A stretch of 64,000 nt of DNA. It comes from Polytrichum commune (taxonomy: Eukaryota > Streptophyta > Polytrichopsida > Polytrichales > Polytrichaceae). Below are positions 4,555 through 59,199 of this stretch, piece by piece (position 1 is the first letter of the stretch; every line of letters begins with the position of its first letter). The notes under the pieces were generated by a model. The model ran no database searches. It was not told the DNA's origin and saw nothing but the letters and a program-made list of their open reading frames with translations. Made by a program: the position numbers and the translations under genes. The stretch spans positions 41,630,440 to 41,694,439 of the forward strand of contig OX485807.1 in assembly GCA_950295325.1 (NCBI GenBank). The letters are read 5' to 3'.

Positions 4555-5165
4555 GTTGTATGCTTAATCTTGTAATTAAGTTGCCCTTGCACATAATTAC
4601 ACTTGATTATGCTTGATTACTTATAATTGTATTTAATTTGAGTGTGTATAAATACTTGTGAAAGGATAAGACATTAATTAAAATGCCATAAAATGAAATA
4701 GCTAAAATCAACACATTATGTTGAGTTCAATTTAAGAATGACAAAGGCTAGATCAACAAAAAAAATTGTAACCTCAATGCCAACAAGGATTATTTTTATT
4801 TGTACTATTCTTAACTTCCAAGTTGATTACATACTTTGTTGATGGTTTCCCTTCAAAAATGAAATTTAGTCAATTGCTTATTTATTAAGTGAAAGTGAAC
4901 ATAGACACTAGATTCTTGGATTTTGAAGGCGGCGTGCACTCAATATGGGTTTTGTGGACAAACAACCTTCAAGAATGCAAGGGCAACTTTTTTTGAAGTT
5001 GAGTAGGGTGGGCAACGTTATTCAGTCGAGTTCATATTTAATCTGAAATTTTTGTCAAGGGTTGTCCAATGGGTTTCTAGTCACGGGCCCCATGCCCTTA
5101 TCCCAATAGAGACCCCTCCCCCTAAAAGTTCATAGCGGGAGGTTTAACATCTGCCATGGTTATAT
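4555..5165 (+). repeat. Dispersed repeat, copy 1 (carries the piggyBac-like empty site)
   Basis: About 600 bp homologous to 31885-32820, collinear throughout (shared blocks such as GTGTATAAATACTTGTGAAAG and AGTTCATAG). At about 5115-5125 this copy reads straight through the point at which the other copy is interrupted by the TTAA-flanked element at 32402-32763. No TG...CA LTR ends, primer-binding site or coding region were found; class unknown. Confidence 0.6.
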
Positions 5166-5364: not shown

Positions 5365-6424
5365 CTTGAGTATATCAAAGTTTACTTTCAAGCTTTGTTG
5401 CTTCTTAAAACATCCTCTTGTTATGTGGCCATCTATTCTTTTACATATCCATGTGCCTTTCAAAACTCGGGAGGGTGGGTGGGACCACCCTTCATGACCA
5501 TATTTATGCACATCTATCTCCATACTACTATAATCATCTCATTTCAATATACTTCTAAAAAAGTTGAAACCTTAGCCATCTAAGCTACTAATGTTTCATA
5601 CTTTGTATGTTTAAGCAATATGTTGCCTTCCATATCCTAAGCTTACAAAATTAAGTTCAATATAAAACATGTTCAAGGATACTTCAAAGTCTTATCACAA
5701 CTCAAATATGCTTTACATTCCAAATCATCTTGTGGAATATCTAAGCAACATACACGTATGTTTGAAAGAAGATGATATATAAAACCTAAGTTTGTTGTCA
5801 ATTTTGTGAAGGGTGTGCCTCACCTATGCCCATGCCACCAACCAAATCCACATAGAGGGTTAATAACGTACACGAGGTGAATAACATCAAAACCCAATTG
5901 TTATTTATGTCACACAATCGTGTACGGCATAATCATACATTTCATATCAAAGAATACACATACTAACAATGAGTATTCTACCTATTCCTTAGCCATTTGA
6001 ACCTTATGTGACTGAAATGTGTGGCATGTTACACACACCTCCCACCTTTACTAGTCCACACCACTTACACTAATCCCATAAGTTACTTGGGGTAAACGGC
6101 CACTTGCGGCATAACCTTTCAAAGAAGGTTCATACGTTTCCTTTCACTTAATATAGGATTAGGTAACCATTTTCGACCATAGATGTTAAAATATCAGATC
6201 TATAGTGGGTATTTGTTAGGTAACTTGCACCTAACCCTGAAGTAATTTTCTTTGGGGTTATATTTTGTTACCATGTCAATCTATTAATGTGTAAGTAAAA
6301 AGAAAATATGGAGAGATATTTTCTTTTGAGGATTCAAATTCATAAAGTACACTTCAACATTAAAATTACTGCACTCAAATTTAGCAACAATTTTTTTGAA
6401 AACCATATAGAGGACATCAATTTA
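5166..6424. other. Gene-free stretch
   Basis: No gene recognised. It contains a homopurine AAAAG tract near 5205-5240 and the GA microsatellite listed separately; otherwise AT-rich sequence without bounded elements that I can see. Confidence 0.45.
5312..5361. repeat. C-run plus (AG)n microsatellite
   Basis: About ten C residues, then CTCCCAC, then an uninterrupted AG run of about 34 nt. Confidence 0.95.
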
Positions 6425-6746
6425 CTAAAAAGGATAGTTAGTGTTTGATTATATGTAATGTTGTTACCATCCTACCCTGCTCAACACTAATTTTCAATCC
6501 TTGACAATTAGCGTTAGACATAAATGTGTTGCTACCTTCCCTACTGCCACCTCCCTTCATTTATTTTTATTTTATTTTTTCATATCCTTACTAACACCAA
6601 ATTCAAACATGGAACTTCCACATGTTACCATAGTTGATATTTAGTGTTTGAGTTTACATTTAATGTTACTTACTTTCATAGGGTTATTGACATTTAGTGC
6701 ATGCATTCGTAATTAGTGTATCAAACACTATATATCCTTTTTAGTG
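6425..6746 (-). mobile_element. TA-flanked CACTAAA-type TIR element, about 322 bp
   Basis: The right end reads CCTTTTTAGTG followed by TA; the left end is TA then CTAAAAAGGATAG, having lost two terminal bases. The inverted repeats run about 25 bp. The interior is the reverse complement of the element at 36918-37236 (shared blocks around AACTTCCACATGTTACC and GGGTTATTGACATTTAG). The TA target suggests Tc1/mariner-type insertion. No transposase. Confidence 0.65.
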
Positions 6747-17975: not shown

Positions 17976-18147
17976 TTGGAGAGGGACACTCACAACGTGA
18001 TAACTCCCCTCCCACCATGGATCCCATGCTTAGCCGATTCCTGAAAGCCTTTGCACCTTTTCTTAACTTACACACCCTAGGCAAGAAAGGCTGTGGTTCC
18101 ACAGTGGACGAATCTGCATGGATCTGCCCTTGCATTGCCACCGACAA

Positions 18148-18572
18148 AGGTAGAAATACCATAACCCTTGAAAATAAGGCGATTTTATCGCATTGAAGAT
18201 CTGGTCTGACAATCATGAGATAATTTTTAAAGATAGACGAGAAGGATTCATGAAGAATGCAAGTTGTTTCATATTTTTCTACTTTATACAAAAATTGTTA
18301 TAATTTTTCAAAGTGGAAAGTTGTCCAATCCCCTACTCGTTCACTAGATTCTCCCTACACCGAACACGGTAATCCGCATTTCCATACAGAAGATCGCCTA
18401 AATCGGTTACCTCATGAGTACATTAACACTTGACTCCCATTGGCTACACTAAGTGTACACGCATTGAGGTTGTTGCCGAGCCATGATCCGTTTTAGAAAT
18501 GGCACTTCACCATTATGACGGCGGTCTAGTACACGGCTAGAGGGTGGTTAACGGGTTATGGTATTTCTACCT
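18148..18572 (+). mobile_element. 425-bp TA-target TIR element, copy 1
   Basis: Ends AGGTAGAAATACCATAACCC and the complement GGGTTATGGTATTTCTACCT. Right flank TA; left flank AA, a presumably mutated TA. Same family and length as 25371-25794 and 36315-36739. No coding capacity. Confidence 0.82.
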
Positions 18573-19226
18573 TATCGCCCTATGAAAACCTCACTTCATT
18601 AAATTCACCAAACCAGTTTTCATGTTTCCACAGTGGTCCCTGCCCACCAGTGTTCAAGATTAAAGTCTCAATGCCCTTCAAACGCGATTTGACCCTTCAA
18701 AATATTCCTCTCTTAAAACAACCCTTCAAAACGCAACTCCAAATTGGGAATGAGGACATCACTTGAAGTCCTCAATATAATGTGCCCGCCACAAGAACCA
18801 ACAAGCGTAGGACATTGTCACCACAAGAAATGGAGTTAGATGGTTGATTTTTAATTCTTCACATTGTATTGGAAACATGTATCATATGATTCATGCACAA
18901 GTTTAATATGAGTTTTGTATTTCAATTCTATGTTCTTGGATTGACGTCTTGGATTTGAACCAACATTTCAACTAAAGGACTAGTTTTTGATATCCCTTCA
19001 AAATGAAACTCATGTGAGGGCTTTAGTCTTGAACAATGTTGCCTACCTGGGGAAGATAATAATGCCATAATAACTTCTACCGGTATACGCGGATATACAG
19101 AAGTAGAAAAAAAACCAACATGTTTTGTTCGCACTGGGCACTTCTGAACGACACTGGGTGTTTAGTGACGTATGGTATTTTATGTCACCATGGTAACTTT
19201 TTGGATGACGCTTCTTATGAATAAGT

Positions 19227-22675: not shown

Positions 22676-25370
22676 GGCATCGTTTCAATTGCAAGTGGAG
22701 GAGATATTGAATTTTGATCATTATCATTAGAAACTATTAGAGAAGCACATGTAAGATGTGAACGGTTGCAATGACCATGAGAGGATGGTTTGGAAATGTG
22801 AGGGATGAATGAACTTTTATTGGTCATACTTAAATATGTTGTGAATGGTTGCAATTGATATCAAATAACGATGGCTAAATAAGTGTGTTCCGAGATCCAA
22901 AAGCTTTATCATCGAATTCAATCACTATCAGTTGGCAGTTGGATTGAAATTCCCAACGGTGAATGAATTCACCACGCGGTGTAATGAGGTGGTGGAAATT
23001 GGAGTTGTTTCTTATTGTATATAGACAACATGTCTAGCCCATTATGGCCTCGGTGTATGGCATAGACACTACCAGCATATGAGTTCTAGGTAATCGGCTT
23101 TTGTCGTTGAAAGAACATTGTAAATCTATCATCATCGTAGGTTTACATAATTTTCAATGACATAGGACAAGTTTCTAGTGACGCAAGACAATTGCTTAAT
23201 TAGGGTTCGTATGCTTGAAGCAAGAGTCCTAAATAGACTTATCAGTGGAGTTACTTTCGGATTAAATTCAAAATAATTCAAAAATTCAAAAAAACTGAAT
23301 TAGTTTTATCATTTAATACCTAAATAGCACTCCAAGTTCTAGCAACACAAACTTCATTAATTCCAAATCTAAAAAAATAAAATTTCTCATGAGAAGCCAC
23401 ACATTTTGCATTATTGGTCAAAGGCAACATCACATGGAAATAACCCTTGGCGGGCAACCAATTTTTGTTAGTTACTGAAGGCTCCCACACATGATGTAGG
23501 GTCTACAACAACTTGCAACAATATATAGCTCAACATTTATAAGAGCGGACTCTCTCTATCTACACTAGAAACCTTTAAGACATGTGTAGATTAAGACTAT
23601 TATATGTGTTTTTGATTTAGGCCACTAATAACTTGCCTTTTACTATACATTTCATCGTTCATAAAGAGCTTGAATTCAATTGCACAAAATACCTAGATGT
23701 CGAATACCGACACAACTTGTAATTGTAAGATTCACGAGCCATAAGAGGAGATCAACTTCTTGACCCTCATAAGCACTTACAATTTGATCTTCATTATTTG
23801 GAACCCCCGTCCAAAACTTATCACTTGATAAGACAAATAGAGGTACAATTTGACTCGGGAATCTTGTTGGGGTTACCCAAATCCAAAACAAACTAGATAT
23901 TTTGTTTTTGGATGATGAGAATGCAATCTCATTTCATCATCCTTCAAGCAACCAAGCCTAAATCACTCCCTTTCCTATTCCAAAAATGAACAACCAAAAA
24001 ATAGATAGATAGATAGATAGATACACCGACCTTCAAAAGATAGCAACCAATATATTTTAGAAAACTATCATAATCAACCATTATCCAATACTCAATTTTA
24101 GAGAACTATTATTATCAACCACCGTCCAATAAGTTCCCGAAAGGAAGTGTATTGCCTCAAGTAGCAATGAGGCTCCTACAAACAAGTGCGTATTCAAGTT
24201 GAATTTCTCATGACATTATGAAGTTGAGCTATGTCTTTTCTTTTCAATTTAAGCTTCAATTCTATTCATAAAGCAATGCCCAACTTACAAGGAGTTGCCT
24301 AACACTCTTTCATGTCGTGCTCTTGCCATAGTCAACAAGTTGAATGGGTGCATGCATGCAATCCCATATTTGTATTGAAATCAGGGCATAAAGAAGAGGA
24401 GGATGAGTGTAAAGGGGGAATAATGTCCACCTCATACCAAAGGTCCACCGAACTTGCATCATCGTGTTCCACATTCCATGACTTTTCATTTACGTAAGTG
24501 CATTAACATTCCATAACATTACTTCACAATGTAGGTCAATTCATATTCTTAAAAAATTAAAATTAAAATTAAAAAAAATCCGCCACATTGTTCAAAGCCG
24601 TGATAACAGTGGGTAAACTTGTGAGTCTCTGGCGGGAAAACATGGTTAACTACTTGAAGAACGTTAAGTCTCAACACCTAGTGGAGAGTTGCACTTCAAT
24701 GCCGTGTATGTGGGCCTTATGTGGTCACTCTTCTTAATTGGGCATTTGTATTTGAGGGGTACATGGCAAAGCTTGTAGTCGAGACCACATTAAAGATGTG
24801 TTACACTGGGATTGGGCTATGTGCTCAAAACAAAAACATCAACTGAACTCAATACTTACATTAACATAATTGCGAGAATCTATAACACGAGACTATCAAA
24901 ACCAAAAACAAAACATCCCCTTTGACTTTCTCACAACTTTTGCATCTCAATTTCGACTCTAAAACTTTAAAAAACCAGTCTACAAGATCCACAAATGACT
25001 ACTCACATAACGAATCAATTCGGGGTCTCACCAACAACCCCGAATTGTTGATGGAGTTTGGAAGTGCCCACAACATGGCCACGTTTCCTTAACACCACCA
25101 CATCTAAAACCAAAGGGGATGTGGAATTGTTGGGAGATTCGTTGGAAGATAAGGCCGTGCGGCTCAAGGAGTCAAGTGGCGATTAAGTTAAGTTATGTAA
25201 GCCACCACTTTTGGCCTTCAAGAAGTGAGTACATGAGTCCACAAGTGAATCTGCAACTGGGACTTAAAAAGTGGGGCGCCTTTGAGCTCATTGGCGTCTT
25301 TTGGGCTATGGTCTCTTTTTCGCAGGTGTCCATGTTCCAAGCACCACACCGCTCGTCAAGGACTAAGGTA
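22676..25370. other. Gene-free AT-rich stretch
   Basis: No gene recognised. About 23070-23260 is a dispersed repeat homologous to 57370-57545 (shared GAAAGAACA, AATCTATCAT, ACATAGGACAAGTTTC.AGTGA). A (GATA)n tract lies at 24001-24023. Confidence 0.45.
24001..24023. repeat. (GATA)n microsatellite
   Basis: Five to six ATAG units. Confidence 0.9.
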
Positions 25371-25794
25371 AGGTAGAAATACCATAACCCATGAAAATAA
25401 GGTGATTCGCATTGAAGATCTGGTCTGACAATCATGAGATAATTTTACACGATACACGAGACGGATTCATGAAGAATGCAAGTTGTTTCATATTTTTCTG
25501 CCCTATAATGCAAAAAATGCTACAATTTTTCAAAGTGGAAAGTTGTCCAACCCCCTGCTCGTTCACTAGATTCTCCCGACACCGAACACGGTAATCCGCA
25601 TTTCCATACAAAACATCGCCTAAATCGGTTACCTCGTGAGTACATTAACACTCGACTCCCATTGGCTACACTAAGTGTACACGCATTGAAGTTGCCGCCG
25701 AGCCATGATCCGTTTCAGAAATGGCACTTCTCCATTATGACGGCGGTCTAGTGCACGGCTAGAGGGTGGTTGATGGGTTATGGTATTTCTACCT
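25371..25794 (+). mobile_element. TA-target TIR element, 424 bp, copy 2
   Basis: Ends AGGTAGAAATACCATAACCC and GGGTTATGGTATTTCTACCT, flanked by TA on both sides. Internal markers shared with the other copies: CTGGTCTGACAATCATGAGA, CGAACACGGTAATCC, ATGACGGCGGTCTA. Tc1/mariner-like target; no transposase. Confidence 0.87.
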
Positions 25795-25796
25795 TA

Positions 25797-26167: not shown

Positions 26168-26719
26168 AGGGGTGATTGAATCATGGCCAGTCTACCCTAC
26201 TTGTATTTAAGTTAGCTTAAAGTTTTGCAATTGCATTGGGCTCAGCTAGAGCTCGCAGTAGCGGAGGATAATGTAGTCAGGCTCGTCTTCTGCATTGATG
26301 ATATGTGCAATTAGATTGCCTTTGTGAATAGATTGCCTCTTTACCCACGCAATTCACCTTGGATCAAAATCGAATTACGAAGACTACTCATTCTATAAAT
26401 TCAATCTTATAACAACCATGGGTAAAACAAATATATTATATTTTTATTGTGATAATAAGTATTCAAACTAGTGTGGAATGTCAATAAATTGGCGTGGAGC
26501 AACCTAATTGCAAATAACATTGTAGCTCTCTCCCTAATGCTCCGTGGGAGGAGTGAAAGGTAGACTACTTATGTGCCATAACTTAAAATCTTGAGGTAAG
26601 TCAAGTATTCACAAACTTAACTAGGCTACATTGTTTTGTCTAATTAGTGTGTATTTGGAGTTACGTGTTGTCATAACTTTTTGCTGAGAGTATTTTTTTT
26701 AACATAAATAACATATGTA

Positions 26720-27081
26720 CACTAATTATGATATTTAGTGTCATTAATTCTAATTATCTTGCTCAATACTAATTGTAAACCGTGGTGTAGTGTCGCCAAC
26801 ACTAAATGTTAACCCAACATTATTTGTCATTCCTTGTGAAAATTTTGGGGGAAATTGATTTACAGTGTGCAATTACTATCACTTAACAAGTGTTTTTCAT
26901 CCAAAATTCAATCATCCATGATAATATTTCATCACAAGTTGATGACAAGAGAAGGTAGGATTTTGGTCAATGGATGCACTCATCCATGACAATGTTTGTT
27001 CAATTATTCATAAGAAGTGTCATCCAAAAAGTTACCATAGTGACATAAAATACCTTATGACACTAGATATCATAATTAGTG
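26720..27081 (+). mobile_element. TA-flanked CACTAAT-type TIR element, 362 bp
   Basis: TA then CACTAATTATGATATTTAGT on the left; ATCATAATTAGTG then TA on the right, with inverted repeats of about 27 bp. This is the uninterrupted relative of 19152-19794. No coding frame. Confidence 0.78.
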
Positions 27082-28068
27082 TAGTTAGTATGCACACCAA
27101 AGGATATGATAAAAGTTAGTTCATAAAATGATATTGCCGGTAGAAAGTTATAGCAACGCATAATTTCAAATGAAAACCCACACTAATTAGACAAAATGAT
27201 GTAGTTTTGTGCCCAAACTAAGGATGGTAGGATTTTGATTAGTCCATGCAAAAATAGAATAGAATTTAGCACTAGTTGAGTTTACCAGCAATGTGGCCAC
27301 ATAAATAAAAATTAACAACAATTTATACTAACACTTCTCTCTAGCACTCCTTAACATTGGTTACCCCTAACTAGCAGTGTGGTTGGGTTTCATTATAGCC
27401 AAATTCAGAGATGAATGTCAAAGGGACTTCAACAAATTTTCTATTTGAATTTGGGGCCCACTTTCAAACACATCTAGTTTAAGGCAGAGAATGTTGTATG
27501 GAATGCTTAGTATTGTTATGGTTAGAAATATTTGAGCCATGCAACCTTCATGTGTCACCGAGCTATGGGTCATAGCATATATGGATAATGTTTTCAGGGT
27601 TTGTGGGAATTTGTGTTAGAGCCATCTCTTAGAGGTAGACCTTATGCAAATTCCGGCGGACCATGTCAACGGTACACCCTTAGGTAGAGAAACAAGGGCC
27701 CTCACATTTACATGGTCATGGCCCTTGGCTCATGTGTGAAAGTGGCCGTTATTGTCTTATGGCTTGTTTATCCAAACCCATCCTCACTACATTGATATGT
27801 ATGTGCAATTAGGTCATGAACAAGTTGCCTCTTTATCCATGTGCATGATCTTGGATCAAAATCATAACCTAAAGAAACTTCACCTTTGTTTTTTTATCCA
27901 TATAGCAACTATATTGAAACCATAATTCATGTGTTTTGTTATCATAGTGATAAATATTTGAAATAGTTGGGAATGTTGATAAATTATGTGAGGCAAACCT
28001 AGTGGCACACGAGATTGTAAGTTAGTTTGGGGGTTTTTGATGTTGGTTTTGGGGTTGTGAGGGCCCAT
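27082..28068. other. Gene-free stretch with MITE debris
   Basis: No gene. Around 27650-27760 there is a broken piece of the GGGCCACTTCAC family (GGTCATGGCCCTTGGCTCAT, GTGTGAAAGTGGCC) without a partner end. Confidence 0.5.
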
Positions 28069-28584: not shown

Positions 28585-29263
28585 CAGTGTCGGGAAGATG
28601 TTTGGGCACAACCGGTTGATATCCTCGTGTGTGCAAGTCCAACCGGTTACATGTTGACGACATCCTCCGGGCTTCCTTTATTAAATTGGGGTATATTCTT
28701 CTATAAACCCCTCTAAAACCATCAGTAATTTTCCTGCAGTCTTGAACAACTTCAACCGGTTATACCTCAAACTCCACCGGTTACATCTCAAACTCAACCG
28801 GTTATATCTCAAACTCCACCAGTCATACCTCAAGCTCCACTGGTCATACCTCAAACTCCACCGGTGATATCTCAAACTCCACCGGTTATATCTCAAACTC
28901 CACCGGTTATACCTCAAACTCAACCGGTTATACCTCAAACTCCACCGGTTATACCTCAAACTCAACCGGTTATACCTCAAACTCCACCAGTTATACCTCA
29001 AACTCAACCGGTTATACCTCAAACTCAACCACCGGTTATACCTCAAACTCAACCGGTTATACCTCAAACCCCACCGGTCATATCTCAAACTCCACCGGTT
29101 ATACCTCAAACCCCACCGGTCATATCTCAAACTCCACCGGTTATACCTCAAACTCCACCGGTCATACCTCAAACTCCACCGGTTATATCTCAAACTCAAC
29201 TGGTGATTTCTCAACCTCCACCGGTTCATCTGTGACTAAGTGCCGGTTCTCCCCCTGATCATA
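28585..29263 (+). mobile_element. AACCGGTT-family element enlarged by an internal minisatellite
   Basis: Starts CAGTGTCGGGAAGATGTTTG, contains CAAGTCCAACCGGTTACATG and ends CGGTTCTCCCCCTGATCAT, as do the roughly 220-bp copies. Between the halves the 21-bp unit is repeated 22 times. A weak duplication of GTCTCTC flanks it. The long open frames on both strands come from the repeat. Confidence 0.75.
28756..29220. repeat. 21-bp minisatellite, 22 copies
   Basis: Unit CCGGTTATACCTCAAACTCCA with A/T, C/T and CCA/CAA variants; 465 bp equals 22 units plus one 3-bp insertion near 29030. Because the unit is a multiple of 3, several frames stay open: plus strand PVIPQTP-type repeats, minus strand SLRYNRW-type repeats. 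Confidence 0.96.
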
Positions 29264-31884: not shown

Positions 31885-32820
31885 CACAGTTATTTACATT
31901 TAATTGCATTTAATCACACTTAGTTAATCTCAATGTGTATGAATACTTGTGAAAGTAGAAGGCACTCACTAGACTATCATAAAATAAGCACACTCAAAAC
32001 AACACACTACTTTAAGTTTCATTTTTGAATGACAAAGACCCTTTCAAATGGTAAGTCACAAAATTAATGACCTCAATGGTAACGAGGGTTTTGTAATATA
32101 CTTGACTTCCATGCTTTATCGATGGCTCCACTTCGAAAAATAAATTCCAATCAATTATTTATTTACTAAGTGGAAGTGAACACATATATTGCATTTTGGA
32201 CGTTGAAGATGTAGTGCACTCGTTACATGTTATATGAACAAGCGGCCTTCCAGAATGCAAGGACAAATTTTTCTTCTTCTCGACGTCGGGTGGGATGGGC
32301 AACAGTTTAGAGTCGAAATCATAAAATATTGGATTTTCTTCTGGGGACTTGCCCAGGGCTACCAGATCACGGGACCCAACCCCTATCCACCTCCCGTTTA
32401 ACCCTTAAACGACAATTCATGGCTTGGGCGGGCAACCCCAAATTGGATCACGGCATCTTTTATGCTTGGGCATCATGAATAGTGCACTTTTTGAACTTGG
32501 GCATCATGAATGAGCCAATCAATGATGAGCTTGCAACCTCCTACAAGGTTGTGTGCAACCCCAACCTACCTACCACAATCCTTTCAAAGCACAAATCACT
32601 CATACAAATTGTGATTTCAATTGTAAAAGTTCACTTTGTGAATGTATCATAAGAAGGTGATTAGAATGATATCAAAAAATAAGTGAAAAGTTGAGTACCG
32701 GAAGAGCTACAGAGAAGATTATGTAGAAATCAAGCCCCTCGGGCTTGCTCTGTCGTTTAAGGGTTAAAGTTCATAGGGGGAGGGTTAACGTCCGCCATCT
32801 TGAAATCAATCTCCTTGCTA
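31885..32820 (+). repeat. Dispersed repeat, copy 2, interrupted by a piggyBac-like element
   Basis: Collinear with 4555-5165 up to about 32401 and again from 32764 (TTAAAGTTCATAGGGGGAGG versus CTAAAAGTTCATAGCGGGAGG). The interruption is the 362-bp element at 32402-32763. Confidence 0.6.
32402..32763. mobile_element. piggyBac-like MITE, 362 bp, TTAA TSD
   Basis: Ends CCCTTAAACGACA and its perfect complement TGTCGTTTAAGGG (13 bp), flanked on both sides by TTAA (32398-32401, 32764-32767). CCC/GGG ends with TTAA targets are the piggyBac hallmark. The related host repeat at 4555-5165 shows the site without it. No transposase; non-autonomous. A short internal palindrome (AAGCCCCTCGGGCTT) lies near the right end. 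Confidence 0.8.
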
Positions 32821-36284: not shown

Positions 36285-36314
36285 CAGCATTTGGGGAGAT
36301 TTTTGTTGGGCATA

Positions 36315-36739
36315 AGGTAGAAATACCATAACCCGTGAAAATAAGGTCATTCACATTGAAGATCTGGTCTGACAATCATGAGATAATTTCCCAAGATAGA
36401 CGAGAAGGAATCATGAAGAATGAATGCAAGTTGTTTCATATTTTTCTGCCCTATACAAAAAAATGGTACATTTTTTCAAAGTGGGAAGTTTTTTAACCCC
36501 TTACTCGTTCACTAGATTCTCCCTACACCGAACACGGTAATCCACATTTCCATACAAAACATCGCCTAAATCAGTTACCTCATGAGTACATTAACACTTG
36601 ACTCCATTGGCTACACTAAGTGTACACGCATTGAAGTTGCCGCTGAGCCATGATCCGTTTTAGAAATGGCACTTCGCTGTTATGACGGCGGTCTAATGCA
36701 CGGCTAGAGGGTGGTTAACCGCTTATGGTTTTTCTATCT
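36315..36739 (+). mobile_element. 425-bp TA-target TIR element, copy 3, nested
   Basis: Left end AGGTAGAAATACCATAACCC after TA; right end GGTTTTTCTATCT before TA. Inserted into the AACCGGTT-family host right after GGGCA, giving an empty-site comparison that confirms a TA duplication. Confidence 0.87.
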
Positions 36740-36917
36740 TAATAGGTCAAAATCCTCGTGTTCCGATGTCCAATTGGTTGCATGTTGTCATCTTTCGGGT
36801 TTTTGTTTATTAATTTGAAGCATATTCCATAGATTCCTCTCAAACGATTGGTAGTTTTCCTGCAGTCTCGAACTTCAACCGGTTATATCTCAAACTCAAC
36901 CGATCCATCGGTAACTA

Positions 36918-37236
36918 CACTCAATATGATATTTAGTGTTTGATATACTAAATACGAACGCATACACTAAATGTCAATAACCCTATGAAAGTAAGTAACA
37001 TCAAATGTAAACGCAAACACTAAATATCAACTATGGTAGTATGTGGAAGTTACATGTTTGAGTTTAGTGTTAGTAAGGATATGAAAAAATAAATTAACAA
37101 TGATAAAAGGAGAATTCCAGTATATCTTCTAGCATATCTCCTAACACTAATTGTCAAGGAATTGAAAATTAGTGATGAGCAGGGTAGGGTGGTAACAACA
37201 TTAAATGTAATCAAACACTAAATATTGTATTTAGTG
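36918..37236 (+). mobile_element. CACTMAATA-type TIR element, 319 bp, nested
   Basis: TA then CACTCAATATGATATTTAGT; right end AATATTGTATTTAGTG then TA. Inserted between GTAAC and GCGGT of the AACCGGTT-family host (other copies read GTAACTAG at this point). The reverse-orientation relative is at 6425-6746. Confidence 0.85.
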
Positions 37237-37260
37237 TAGCGGTCAATTCTCCCCATTCAT

Positions 37261-46699: not shown

Positions 46700-47705
46700 C
46701 ATGCCCCCGGAGCCACAATTGATGATTTCCCTGCTGCCCACCAGTTGGCTTTCAAGGGTGGCCTAGCGCAGTTGGCTTCGCAACGGCGACGGCGACGGCC
46801 CGAGGCAGTGGACGCAACCACCGTCCGTCGGGCGGCGACTCCGGCGTCCTTACGATGCGTAACGGAACTGGTTCCCGTTACGTTACGGACCAGGAGGCGC
46901 ACGGTTAACTCCCCCGTTTCCCGCTCCGGCTTTGTGTGGTCACCAGCGGAGCTCCTGCGTTCTTCACTCAATTGCCTCCTCACTCCCTTTCAATCGAATC
47001 TACATACCTTCTTCAGCTACCCTTCTGCCCCCCCCCCCCCGCGTCAATGTCCCCTCGGTTCAATTGCGCCACCACACCAACCACTACTCTCATACACATA
47101 CACACACACACAACTCCTGTGGAATGCTATCATCGTCATCGTGTGGCGGCGACGGCGGCAGCAGCAGCAGCAGGAATTGATTGTGAAGCGCTGCTCTTGG
47201 TGAGGTGAGATGTGGTGAGGTGGTGAATTGGTTGGGTTTGTTGTGCTCCGGTGCAGCAATAGCAATAGCAGCAGCAGCAGCAGCGATGGTGGCGATATAC
47301 TGAAAGAGTGGAGGATTTGATTTGGGAGTGGATGGGTTTGGCTATGGGTATGGGTGTGGATGTCGTGAAATTGGAGCAGCGGCCATGGGGGGTGGTTGTT
47401 CGGGAGAGGAGAAGAGGGGGTGGACGTGGGGCAGGGTGCGCGGCGGAGGCGAGGCGGGGTTCGGGTTTATTTGAGTGAGTTTGGAGGTAGTTTGGAGGTG
47501 TTTTGGAGGGGGCAGGATTGAATTGGGAGAATTTGGGTGGAGTTAGGGTAAAGGGAGGGGGAGGGGGAGGGGGGGGGGGGTGGGGGTGGGTTTGGGAGGG
47601 GAGAAATGCAAAGGAAGGGTGATTGGGAGTGGTGATGATGGTGGTGGTTATTGGGAACAGAATGGTTGTTGGGCAAAGGGTGGTGGTGGAGGTGACGACG
47701 GTGCA
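46700..47705 (+). promoter_or_regulatory. Probable SPA promoter and long GC-rich 5' leader
   Basis: GC content and simple repeats rise sharply: a C run near 47030, (CA)n near 47095-47112, CAG/CAA runs near 47158-47172 and 47268-47282, and a purine/G-rich tract to 47580. The same sense frame as SPA has a TAG at 47544-47546, so the protein does not simply extend upstream. At least four upstream ATGs lie between 47210 and 47640. Transcription start unknown; a leader intron is possible. Confidence 0.5.
47332..47478 (+). promoter_or_regulatory. uORF 1 candidate in the SPA leader (48 codons)
   Basis: ATG at 47332, stop TGA at 47476-47478; begins MGLAMGMGVDVVKLEQ, then is Arg/Gly-rich. No family recognised. 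A six-codon uORF (47286-47303) precedes it. Regulatory meaning is inferred only from position. Confidence 0.4.
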
Positions 47706-47709
47706 ATGA
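47635..47709 (+). promoter_or_regulatory. uORF 2 candidate, stop overlaps the SPA start (ATGA)
   Basis: ATG at 47635 (followed by a second ATG) reads 24 Val-rich codons and stops at TGA 47707-47709, sharing bases with the SPA ATG at 47706-47708. The arrangement would allow termination-coupled reinitiation or repress the main frame. Confidence 0.5.
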
Positions 47710-50700
47710 AGAAGTTCTCACCAATAGGAGTAGACTCAGGGCGTGTAACGGAGACATCGACAGCGCAGCAGCGAGGGCATGTGCCGGAAGTGGGAGGCGT
47801 GGGTTTGGGATTGGGATCTAGGGTAACGACGCCGACGAGCGATGTGGGGTCGGGGGGGGCGAGCGGCGAGGGCGTGTATTGCGAGGAGGTGACAATCAGG
47901 CAATGGCTGAGCAGGCCGAATCGCAAAGTGGACAGGGTAGAGAGTCTGCATATATTCAAGCAGGTGTTGGACTTTGTGGACCTAGCACATGGGCAAGGCG
48001 TCATGTTGCGCAACATTCGGCCATCCTGTTTCCTCCTCTCCACAACGAATAAAGTTGCATTCATCGACTCGGCCAGCGCTCGGGGGGGCAATAGCTCCGA
48101 TGAATCCCTAGAGAACTCGCCTGGGAAAGCATCGACGTCATTAGAAATCTTAAGGCATAGGAATGGTGATGGAGCTAGGAGAACTCATGTAGCAGAGGTA
48201 TGTCAAGAGTCCCCAGCTGCCATGGCTACATTACCATTATCACTACCATTACCATTATCGTCCCGGCCCACATCCAGCAGGCAAGAAGGGGAATACTGGA
48301 TGCAGGAAGGAGGAGCAGGTGTAAATTCTGGGGGAGGTGTGCGGGAGTGGAGTGGTAGCACAGGCTCAGGAGATTCAAGGGCAGAGTCAAGTGGCGGTGT
48401 TCATCATTCTGAATTGGATTCGTCATCTGGGAAGCGAGTTCGTGGCAGTAGTGACATGACCCAGCGAATTGGCGAGGCTTACTTCCCGCAAAGGCAATTG
48501 CTACAATTGGAACAGGCATGGTACACGAGCCCGGAGGAATTGACCACCGGGTCAAGCTCGTTTGCTTCCGACGTGTATAGTCTAGGGGTACTCAGTTTCG
48601 AGGTACTACTACCTCAATTTCCACCATCTCACCATCATCTGATCATACATACACAAGTTTTGTAACAAGGACCCCACTAAGAGACCCATAATCATTTTGA
48701 TGGCAATTTTTTTGATTGTGATCATGTCATGTGTGGTGGGTTGGCGTTGGCAGTTATTTTTTTCGTTTGGATCAAAGACGGAACAAGCAAGAGTCATGGC
48801 AGATCTTCGGAACCGGATTCTACCACCACGTCTGTTGTCAGAACATGCTAAAGAAGCCTCTTTCTGTCTCTGGTTGCTGCACCCAGATGCGAATTGCAGA
48901 CCAAAAGCCAGGTAGGTTCCGTTGTTGTGTTGCAGGAAGAGTCTTTGTGGAATGATTGCCAAACACATGCAGTGAGTGATAGGTCCCACTTTTGTTTTTT
49001 CCATCAATCGAAGAACTGTTAGTGCTTCTTTTATCCTACAGGGCAGTTTACGCGCTTGTGACATCCATGTGAACTTACATGCTTTTCTTGAAGAATCTGT
49101 CTTCGGTGGATCAGAATCCACTTGATATGTTGGATGTAACGCCATGAGTTACTTTGAGACACGTCTAGTCATACCACAGTGAGTGTGAACCTTTTTTTTC
49201 ACATTAGGGAGTGTTTAGAATGTTGGCCACATGACTGCTTCGCGATTGGTTTTGTGATTTGCCTAAATGAGAGAACCTGCGTGTGTGTGTGTAATGCAGG
49301 GAGATCTATCTGTGTGATATCTTGACGGAAGCTGGAGATGCAATAGCTGAGAGACAAGCTTTTGTGCAATTGGAGGAGAAGGAAGCAGAGTCAGAGGTTC
49401 TTCTATATTTCTTGTCACAGATGCAACATGAAAAGCAGGAGACTGCTCGGAAATTGGCTCAAGATATAGCACGGCTTAATTTAGACATTAAAGAAGTGGA
49501 GAGACGGCAGCTACCATTCAAGAGGAAGCGTAGCCTGGCAGCAAAAGCAGCCGATATGAATGGGCATAGGCGAAACTCAGCTGCCCCCATGCAAGACAGA
49601 AGAGGATTACTGGGAAAGAGACAGTACCCAGAAGACAATGTGGAGAAAGAGGCAACACTTAGAAGGCAGGGTGGCTTATGTACAGAAGGGGGAGGGAAAG
49701 TGTTATCAAAGAGCGCTAGGTTTATGAGCAACTTCAACCACTTAGAAAAAGTCTACTTTGCTATGAACTGGAGAACTGGCACACCTGGTATGGGACCAAG
49801 CTCAAAGGAAGGGTCACAAAGTGGTATGATCGGCAGTGCAGCTAATGAGCAAAAGAAATTGGACCCGAAGATGGGTGAGGATAAAGACGGAGAGTGGTTA
49901 GGCAGCTTCTTTGATAGTCTATGCAAGTATGCGCGGTACAGCCGATTTGAAGTGAAGGCCACATTACGACATGGAGATCTATTGAATACAGCCAACATGG
50001 TTTGCTCACTAGATTTTGATAGGGATGAAGAGTATTTTGCTACTGCTGGGGTTTGTAGGCGAATCAAAGTATTTGAGTGTGATACAGTACTCAATGAGCA
50101 TGTTGACATTCACTATCCAGTGGTGGAGCTGCCAAGTCGATCCAAGCTGAGCAGTGTTTGCTGGAATGGTTATATCAAGAGTCATCTTGCCTCATGTGAC
50201 TATGATGGTATCGTTCAGGTTGGTACTCCTCACTTACTGCTTATGTGAACCCTTCAAACCCAAATCTGCACTAGTTCATCATACATGTAAGCTGTAGTGT
50301 TGACCAAAATCTGCTTATTGAGTTTTAGAGCCCTGATGAATGGCCCCCACTCTTATCTTTACAGCTGTCTGTTGGAGGGAGTTAATGTTGAAGTCATGGT
50401 TGAGCTCGCAACTTAACGCTTAGAAAAAAATACAATCAACAGCTCTCAACTACCAACTACTCTTCTCTGTTAGCTCGAGGTGGCTGGTGTTGACTGTTGC
50501 CTCTGCCAAATAGAAACCCACATTTGACCAGAGTGATGTGTATCAGGAGCAGTTTCTTTATATGTGAGACTTGGAGTGTAGTAAAGTTAAGTGGTAACTT
50601 ATTGATGCTATAGATGGTGGATGGAAATCCACCTCTACTTGTCATTCTTCCAAATACTACTGGGAGTTAATCACAACCTGTATACTATAAGTGTATGCAT

Positions 50701-57545: not shown

Positions 57546-58601
57546 CCTACGTGTCTGTAGAATTTTGGTGCAAATAGAATGAAATGAAATTGATTCCAAA
57601 CTTTGGAAAATCGAAAGGCTTATGGGACTAAAAGTACACCCTAACCTCCATAATATCACCCTTTGGGTTGTCACTCCCTCTCTTATATCCTGAAACCCTA
57701 GGGAACGAATGTGCTCAGTTCAAATCTCCCTCATTGTCGAATTTCCCTCTCATATACCACGGGTTTTGACAATAATATGATTTACCAAAGAATTCAAACC
57801 ACACACTCGCACGCATCACGTTGTTATTATTGTCATTACTACAACGTTGACTTTGTGTTATTCCATATTGGCACATGCTCACTAATTCTTTATTATCATG
57901 CACCCATGTTAACAATGCATACCTCCTTAATATCACGTGTACTTTGGTTGTCACAAGCGTGATATTAGGGAGGTTAGAATGTACATCAAGATGATGTCAA
58001 ACATGCTAATTCCCTACTTGGAGTAGGATAGTGCGAAGGCCTCCATGAGATAGAGGTTAATATCAACTTGATGGTCCAACTAGAAAAAGACTTAAGATTG
58101 TCTAGTACTACATCCTCCAATAGGGAACTTGTTTCTAATAGAGTTGTAGAGGAGACATTTCAACACAAATTTGTCTTGTTCTCAACTACATTGTAAGAGA
58201 AAGAAAATGACATAATATCTAGGGACTGGGATAGTCGACCACTAGCCAGTTTCAATGGCAAGTCCAAAATTCAAGGTGCATTAAGCAACAATGATTTTTG
58301 CGTTGGAGTAGTGTCAATGGTTGCTTCAAGTACAATTCACGTTTCTAATTGAGCCAATCCTTGAGGTGGAGGTAATCTAATTATGTCATGTGAGGTGGAA
58401 AGAGGTCCAACTTTCAAAAAATGAGACCATTCAAAATTTCTATGCTTGATGATTTTTTAAGGAAGATCCATAAGTGTTTGTGTACGGATCTTGTAAGAAT
58501 GTGAAGCCTAGAGATTTCACATTTGTATTAAATTGCCCATGTGTTATAAGTGTATGGTATTTTTTTTTGAAATAAAATGGAAAGGGAGTTGAGCTTCAGT
58601 A
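57546..58601. other. Dispersed repeat (minus copy) split by a TIR element, then gene-free sequence
   Basis: 57553-57638 and 57979-58110 are the two halves of a minus-strand copy of the repeat at 16600-16800 and 35485-35680 (GAAAGGCTTATGGGACTA ... TCAACTTGATGG). The interruption is the element at 57639-57978. The rest has no gene. Confidence 0.5.
57639..57978. mobile_element. TIR element, about 340 bp, inserted in a dispersed repeat
   Basis: Left CCCTAACCTCCATAATATCAC and right GTGATATTAGGGAGGTTAG are inverted repeats, with GTTGTCAC / GTTGTCAC-complement just inside. GTACAC and GTACAT at the two junctions may be the TSD. No recognised coding frame. Confidence 0.62.
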
Positions 58602-59001
58602 CACTAAATAGGTAGATTAGTGTTGGAAACACTAATAGTCGACAAAAACGCTAAATGTCAATTGTCTTCATAGTGTTAGAACACTAAATGTCAACTCTAA
58701 CACTATTTGTACCAATTAGTAACTTTGAATATTTACAAAAGCGCATTTAGTGTTAGATGACATTTTTTGTAGATCTTCAAATGAAGAATTGGAGGTAGAA
58801 TATGTGAGCCTCATAGAAAATGTAATATGCTAGGAATTTGATATTACAAAATTTAAACTTAATGGAACTCAACTTTGACAATGCAAAATAAAGACAAAGG
58901 AAATTGTAACACTAATTGTACTTTCAAGTGACATTTAGTGTTTTGGGTAACTATTGGCTCTAACACTAATCTTCATCTAACACTAATCTACCTATTTAGT
59001 G
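58602..59001. mobile_element. TA-flanked CACTAAATA-type TIR element, 400 bp
   Basis: TA then CACTAAATAGGTAGATTAGT; right end ACTAATCTACCTATTTAGTG then TA. The inverted repeat is perfect over about 23 bp. The interior is studded with ACTAAAT / ATTTAGT words. Confidence 0.87.
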
Positions 59002-59199
59002 TAGTTATGAACATTGTTTTTGGCACCAAATATGTGCTTGGGGAGTTGTACCCCACTAGCTTGAACGCATGTTGTCCCAGCCCATTATAAATGTCCATAT
59101 GTATCAATATCCCAAATGAATCCACCCACATACATCCATACACTCATGGAGCCATATGCCCATGCCCATGCATACCCGCCAATGTATGCATGTATGCCA

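Follow-up and report, generated by a model that had tools for sequence, protein, structure and literature searches.

What is a short element with TTAA flanks and CCC/GGG ends in the genome of the moss Polytrichum commune, and which enzyme could have moved it? The locus lies in the window, the 64,000-nucleotide stretch of DNA analyzed here (C5:41630440-41694439), within a host assembly of 407.8 Mb in 64 contigs, seven of which measure 42 to 78 Mb. The initial annotation had described a piggyBac-like miniature inverted-repeat transposable element (MITE), and its structural description is confirmed: the element spans 362 bp (32402 to 32763), with perfect 13-bp inverted ends and TTAA at both flanks. 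The left terminal inverted repeat (TIR), CCCTTAAACGACA, occupies 32402 to 32414 on the plus strand and the right TIR 32751 to 32763 on the minus strand, with the TTAA target-site duplication at 32398 to 32401 and 32764 to 32767. Allowing up to three mismatches, CCCTTAAACGACA occurs at 21 places in the window, and the match is exact at these two positions only. TTAA with perfect 13-bp inverted ends 100 to 1000 bp apart is found as one pair in the window and in none of 200 simulated sequences (64 kb each, with the same first-order base transitions as the window), indicating that a chance origin of the inverted-end pair is unlikely. Inside the TIRs lie a left subterminal region (32415 to 32438, plus strand) common to the MITE and longer relatives, a family-specific 270-bp interior (32443 to 32712; among the fetched loci, BLAST matched it to copies of this MITE only), and a right subterminal palindrome (32731 to 32747) with arms CAAGCCC/GGGCTTG on the minus strand, which begins 3 bp inside the TIR. 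An Rfam scan of the window returned no matches. The perfect 13-bp CCCTTAAACGACA also agrees with the rule of a 12- to 19-bp TIR with terminal CC[C/T]T set out in the accessible part of PMC2872659.

The window contains further repeats and one gene-like region. Three related copies of about 430 bp (18147 to 18574, 25369 to 25796, and 36313 to 36741) form a separate MITE-like family, two of them with clear inverted ends of the TAAGGTAGAAATACCATAACCC type. Inverted-repeat elements of 320 to 400 bp at 6424 to 6745, 26718 to 27083, 36915 to 37239, and 58600 to 59003, with ends resembling CTACACTAAAT...ATTTAGTGTAG, are perhaps another MITE family. An array of about 22 copies of a 21-bp unit (ACCGGTTATACCTCAAACTCC) at 28755 to 29226 is open in several frames. 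Plus-strand frames at 47547 to 50248 resemble a COP1/SPA-type gene: their protein kinase match barely exceeds the Pfam cut-off, and a weak WD40 match falls short of it.

The insertion splits a diverged host repeat whose left part lies at 31921 to 32401 and right part at 32768 to 32798, both on the plus strand. When the two flanks are joined with a single TTAA, they align to a plus-strand relative at 4630 to 5157 with 67% identity over 547 columns; the alignment across the junction reaches 69% over 347 columns, and the segment 32766 to 32798 matches 5125 to 5157 at 88%. This relative is unbroken at the insertion point, as the initial annotation had stated, although the limits given there (4555 to 5165) were slightly wide. 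Searching the genome with the joined flanks returned 40 matches from the best 40 of 231 candidates, two of which are the halves of the window locus; among the matches listed, at least 38 paralogous host repeats run through the junction (query positions 162 to 165). Paralogous empty sites thus exist in both the window and the genome, in line with the alignment of flanks and empty sites that had been proposed. Five empty copies were examined base by base at the TTAA position: the window relative reads TAAA (5123 to 5126), L071, L073, and L075 read TGAA, and L072 has a gap. Because none of these is TTAA, the empty copies are relatives of the target rather than excision footprints, and the insertion seems to have hit a host-repeat copy in which TTAA happened to exist.

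A search for further copies of the element in the assembly had been proposed, and its outcome favors the MITE reading. The 20 matches comprise 11 full-length copies (the window's included), 1 truncated copy, and 8 matches to the ends only, which belong to six longer elements. In all 11 full copies the element ends at the same positions and is bordered by TTAA left and right. The 13-bp TIR is exact at 18 of their 22 ends and has one mismatch at the other 4; counted by side, the left TIR is exact in 10 of 11 copies, with one mismatch in the eleventh, and the right TIR is exact in 8, with one mismatch in each of the other 3. The 15 to 30 bases on either side vary from copy to copy, and flanks taken from one side, up to 100 bp long, have no mutual BLAST similarity. 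Apart from 31 extra bases in L014, the copies are close to uniform, with a mean divergence of 0.92% and a maximum of 1.35% (55 pairwise comparisons, gaps not counted); given this high likeness, the short copies probably spread recently. With an assumed substitution rate of 7e-9 per site and year, taken from flowering plants, the burst would be roughly 0.7 million years old. We also searched the genome for the perfect 13-bp end preceded by three free bases, with any base but C ahead of those three. This pattern occurs at 55 places, compared with 4 for a reversed control, and is preceded by TTAA at 52 of them, by TTCA at 1, and by other sequence at 2.

A sister MITE family of about 242 bp is also present. 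Seven copies that we compared carry CCCTTAAAGGACA at one end and CCCTTAAACGACA at the other, have TTAA on both sides, differ at 4 to 12 positions per 242 bases, and have in common with the focal family the right subterminal stretch. Many copies in the genome have CCCTTAAAGGACA at both ends. A DNA search gave at least 41 matches from the best 40 of 210 candidates, 40 of them at 97 to 100% identity, and perfect CCCTTAAAGGACA ends occur at 393 places (reversed control, 6); among the 100 of these that were listed, TTAA is present in 87 and absent in 13. At C1:66023949-66024416, two sister copies adjoin in the same orientation, their starts 227 bp apart.

Longer elements with the same ends connect the MITE to a transposase. 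L009 on contig C3 is 8,647 bp long with exact TIRs, and L064 on contig C5 is 5,795 bp long with one mismatch in each TIR; both have TTAA outside, and their two ends align with those of the focal MITE, in the same orientation. MITE positions 1 to 41 are 90 to 95% identical to L064, L065, L008, and L010 and 88% identical to L028, and positions 1 to 32 are 94% identical to L009. A 493-aa frame of L009 matches PF13843 (DDE_Tnp_1_7) with 217 bits (cut-off, 22.4; E value, 4.7e-64), and its best solved-structure match is the Trichoplusia ni piggyBac transposase (9e-28), followed by piggyBat (1.1e-13). Three other L009 frames scanned against Pfam gave no match. Across the 14 transposases that we aligned, three motifs line up in every sequence, namely VDE/IDE, a D before F-T/S/A-S, and GVDV, which we take to hold the catalytic DDD; the D of the xDQ motif that follows is replaced by N in one copy, L043. 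The initial annotation had proposed a search for a DDD transposase with the same termini, and L009 and L064 are such elements. It had also raised the possibility of an undescribed autonomous partner. Same-ended elements of 5.8 and 8.6 kb do encode a piggyBac transposase, but both focal transposase genes carry stops: L009 has one inside the domain match, its cysteine-rich stretch lies beyond the stop (tblastn match L009:1093-1236), and L064 has several together with an additional 1.25 kb. No intact focal-family transposase gene was found in this assembly, in searches that give lower bounds.

MITEs usually arise by internal deletion of a longer element. L064 and L009 are 94.6 to 97.6% identical in five aligned blocks and 90.6% identical in a sixth of 32 bp, and four elements of 1.2 to 1.8 kb (L008, L010, L028, and L065) resemble L064 with the middle missing, at 86 to 97% identity to it in blocks. 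Two stretches of L009 (316 to 655 and 5122 to 8040) are absent from L064 and are apparently later insertions into the piggyBac copy. Among the fetched loci, the 270-bp interior of the MITE matched copies of the focal MITE and none of the long elements; the MITE is therefore not a simple deletion product of the long copies examined. Taken with the genome copies, the same-ended transposase elements support the assignment to piggyBac that had been made from TTAA and CCC/GGG ends. We conclude with high confidence that the element is a nonautonomous MITE of the piggyBac superfamily, with ends of about 30 to 50 bp each that are common to longer resident piggyBacs and a 270-bp interior specific to its own family among the loci compared.

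The right palindrome lies in the same place in both MITE families and in L008, L009, L064, and L065, and is shorter in L010; its arms are kept while the centre varies. It starts 3 bp inside the TIR, with arms of 7 to 8 bases, in family A (see below) and most focal members, and 5 bp inside, with arms of 6, in family B and L010. L064 and L065 have an additional palindrome with arms of 6 near the other end. Among random 73-mers of the window, arms of at least 7 occur in 4.0% (loop up to 4) and arms of at least 6 in 10.5%. In T. ni piggyBac, which has a 14-bp TIR and a TTAA target, a subterminal repeat likewise sits 3 bp away from the 5' TIR (accessible part of PMC10140906), so the palindrome may be a candidate transposase site.

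The host genome holds many more piggyBac-related loci. The PF13843 profile gave at least 118 matches, several of which may be pieces of one locus, and no match in 14 control genomes, of which those named are prokaryotes. Thirty returned loci were grouped by DNA similarity into A (5 loci), B (3), C (3; L036, L054, and L058), D (13), and E (4), plus the single locus L056 and L039, which is the same place as L009. In family A (L029 to L033), a 564-aa open frame is present in five loci, 98.2 to 99.9% identical in the stretches compared, and the two elements examined whole (5,980 and 6,068 bp) have TTAA and CCCCTAA ends. Family B comprises L046 with a 783-aa frame, L057 with a 626-aa frame followed by a stop, and L055 with several stops. 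L046 and L057 have the same length, 5,744 bp, and identical 13-bp TIRs, and their sequences are 98.75% identical. Similarity stops at TTAA within five bases in both the family A pair and the family B pair, and by their sequences families A and B look like recently moved transposons. Like the focal family, these residents have TTAA, and they are full-length with CCCC ends and open frames (564 aa in A, 783 aa in L046). Their TIRs differ from the focal TIR at 3 of 13 bases in family B and at more in family A, and over the matched parts their transposases share 48 to 51% (B) and 37 to 38% (A) identity with the focal one.

Groups D and E show strong synonymous divergence with the protein kept, a sign of purifying selection. 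Nine of the 13 group D loci (L034, L035, L037, L038, L040 to L042, L044, L045, and L047 to L050) have open frames of 888 to 952 aa, and the frames of the four group E loci (L043 and L051 to L053) reach about 1100 aa. The DDD motifs are kept in the eight D and three E loci aligned. dN/dS is 0.119 to 0.129 in six D pairs and 0.125 to 0.183 in three E pairs, at dS values of 0.56 to 1.07; ratios of 0.36 and 0.47 in two family A pairs and of 2.2 in the one from family B mean little at dS below 0.02. By eye, frames of families B, D, and E have a C-terminal CxxC...CxxC...H pattern that is putatively zinc-binding, and family A frames have a Cys/His-rich tail. In the one D pair checked (L038 and L045), the region of similarity spans 4.07 kb (88%), and neither TTAA nor a visible inverted repeat marks its limits. 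Groups D and E are possible candidates for domestication; old mobile lineages could give the same dN/dS.

Could the element instead belong to another superfamily? Any single TTAA site, the window's included, can equally well be read as belonging to a Stowaway-like MITE of the Tc1/mariner type, which would have a TA duplication and TIRs starting with A, since TTAA and TA are both palindromic; for the same reason, a paralogous empty site, which we considered as proof of the duplication length, is insufficient by itself. The sister copy L074 (C1:17505888) solved this question. It has ATAT on both sides, directly before CCC, which places the A outside the element and leaves no TA duplication; the duplication is therefore 4 bp and the element begins at CCC. 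Barring a chance double mutation at that copy, the Stowaway-like reading is refuted, and since the same-ended elements encode a piggyBac transposase as well, we consider it exceedingly improbable. piggyBac is not alone in having TTAA duplications and CCC/GGG-like ends; Kolobok and Sola3 use TTAA too. Nevertheless, membership in one of these superfamilies, or a PIF/Harbinger Tourist-like origin with a 3-bp duplication, is hardly credible: the L009 transposase frame matches DDE_Tnp_1_7 and nothing else in Pfam at E values up to 1, and the duplication is 4 bp, not 3 bp. Equally little weight falls on an assembly artefact or on contamination from an animal or fungus. The idea draws on the published range of piggyBac, for the most part animals, fungi, and protists (PMC12732532, in the portion available), but all seven large contigs carry matches, and the copy in the window is embedded in a host repeat that has at least 38 uninterrupted paralogues. 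The same assembly also contains 28 NAC domain matches that form 14 two-exon genes, and a plastid contig (C8) on which an open rbcL, whose best solved-structure matches are Rubisco large chains, is followed by trnR-CCG and next by a further frame, which we take to be accD. NAC genes fit a land plant. Two PF00148 genes of 508 to 520 aa on the plastid contig are presumably chlB and chlN; to our knowledge, flowering plants lack both trnR-CCG and chlB/chlN. The markers indicate a land plant whose plastid is of a non-angiosperm type, probably a moss, and seven large contigs and a genome of 407.8 Mb would fit the Polytrichum group.

A further possibility concerns the source of the transposase and is a variant of the piggyBac MITE reading, not exclusive of it: the recent burst may have been driven by another resident family, such as B, cross-acting on the ends. 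No intact focal transposase was found. Among relatives with an open frame, family B comes nearest (51% amino acid identity); it has near-identical full-length copies and carries a TIR (CCCCTAAAGGACC) that agrees with the MITE TIR at 10 of 13 bases, the sister left TIR CCCTTAAAGGACA being intermediate. On the other hand, family B and the focal MITE have different subterminal sequences, and an intact focal copy may be missing from this assembly or haplotype only, or may have been missed. We rate cross-action as a serious proposal that falls a little short of even. Under the nonautonomous piggyBac reading, whichever family acted, the transposase would be provided in trans, as the shared ends and low divergence suggest; this piggyBac enzyme would bind the TIR and subterminal sequence and would cut at the CCC end; the element would then insert at TTAA, duplicating those 4 bp, and would presumably be excised seamlessly, restoring TTAA.

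Comparable arrangements are known from animals. The coral CMITEs and AmiPB1-6 described in the available text of PMC2872659 likewise include MITE families with a TTAA duplication, and the full piggyBac AmiPB1 (end CCCTTTCCCGTCC) has a TIR in common with one of them and a weakly similar interior. Tandem MITE arrays in the coral resemble the two adjoining sister copies seen here (PMC2872659, same portion). There, AmiPB1 measures 3,668 bp in its animal host, whereas the plant families examined whole measure 5.7 to 6.1 kb, and a true allelic empty site was described in the coral, in contrast to the paralogous empty sites here. T. ni piggyBac (PDB 6x67) has a homologous transposase, with a partial alignment of 266 residues; it is 2,472 bp long and has 19-bp subterminal inverted repeats near both ends (PMC10140906, as far as accessible), whereas the palindrome in the moss elements lies near one end mostly. 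The mechanism holds nothing new; the host is the unusual part. Stowaway and Tourist elements are short, noncoding families with TIRs and 2-bp and 3-bp duplications, respectively. In plants they are assigned to the Tc1-Mariner and PIF-Harbinger superfamilies (PMC9033089, Table 1, the part available).

The assertion of the initial annotation that plant genomes do not normally contain piggyBac elements stands in part. The same table, from 2022, lists Tc1-Mariner, hAT, Sola, MuDR-Foldback, PIF-Harbinger, and CACTA as plant TIR superfamilies and does not include piggyBac, and the accessible portion of a 2008 paper (PMC2528002) speaks of just five superfamilies described in plants. Against the assertion are passing mentions of "plants" without detail in the available parts of PMC10813416, PMC8086355, and PMC10140906, a sentence on plants that lists PiggyBac in the part seen of PMC10794571, the naming of red algae in that of PMC12732532, and a trace in the C-fern, whose repeat table has 1,230 PiggyBac entries amounting to 0.00% of the assembly (PMC6890710, in part). 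Among the open-licence papers listed, judged by title and start of abstract, we found no description of a land-plant piggyBac, a scope within which an unseen description is quite possible, and no open-licence paper combined piggyBac, mosses, Gypsy, and genome assembly. One moss genome paper containing "piggybac" concerned "expression piggybacking," not the transposon. The element is a new member of the piggyBac superfamily in a host group without piggyBac in the available 2022 table (PMC9033089).

Although piggyBac is in wide use as a transposon tool, it is absent from that land-plant transposon table (PMC9033089, Table 1, the part available). We can tentatively picture a land plant with a whole piggyBac ecosystem, a picture that we hold to be possible rather than probable: recently moving autonomous families, MITE families, one of which would have spread within roughly the last million years, and piggyBac-derived gene families of 13 and 4 loci, maybe encoding domesticated nucleases that work as PGBD and PiggyMac proteins do elsewhere. 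The near-identical piggyBacs and young TTAA MITEs make the entry of piggyBac into plants testable, as old inheritance or horizontal transfer, and plant silencing of piggyBac and the existence of a plant-adapted piggyBac likewise become testable in this host. Our results suggest that a TTAA MITE in a plant genome should not be assigned automatically to Stowaway or Tourist.
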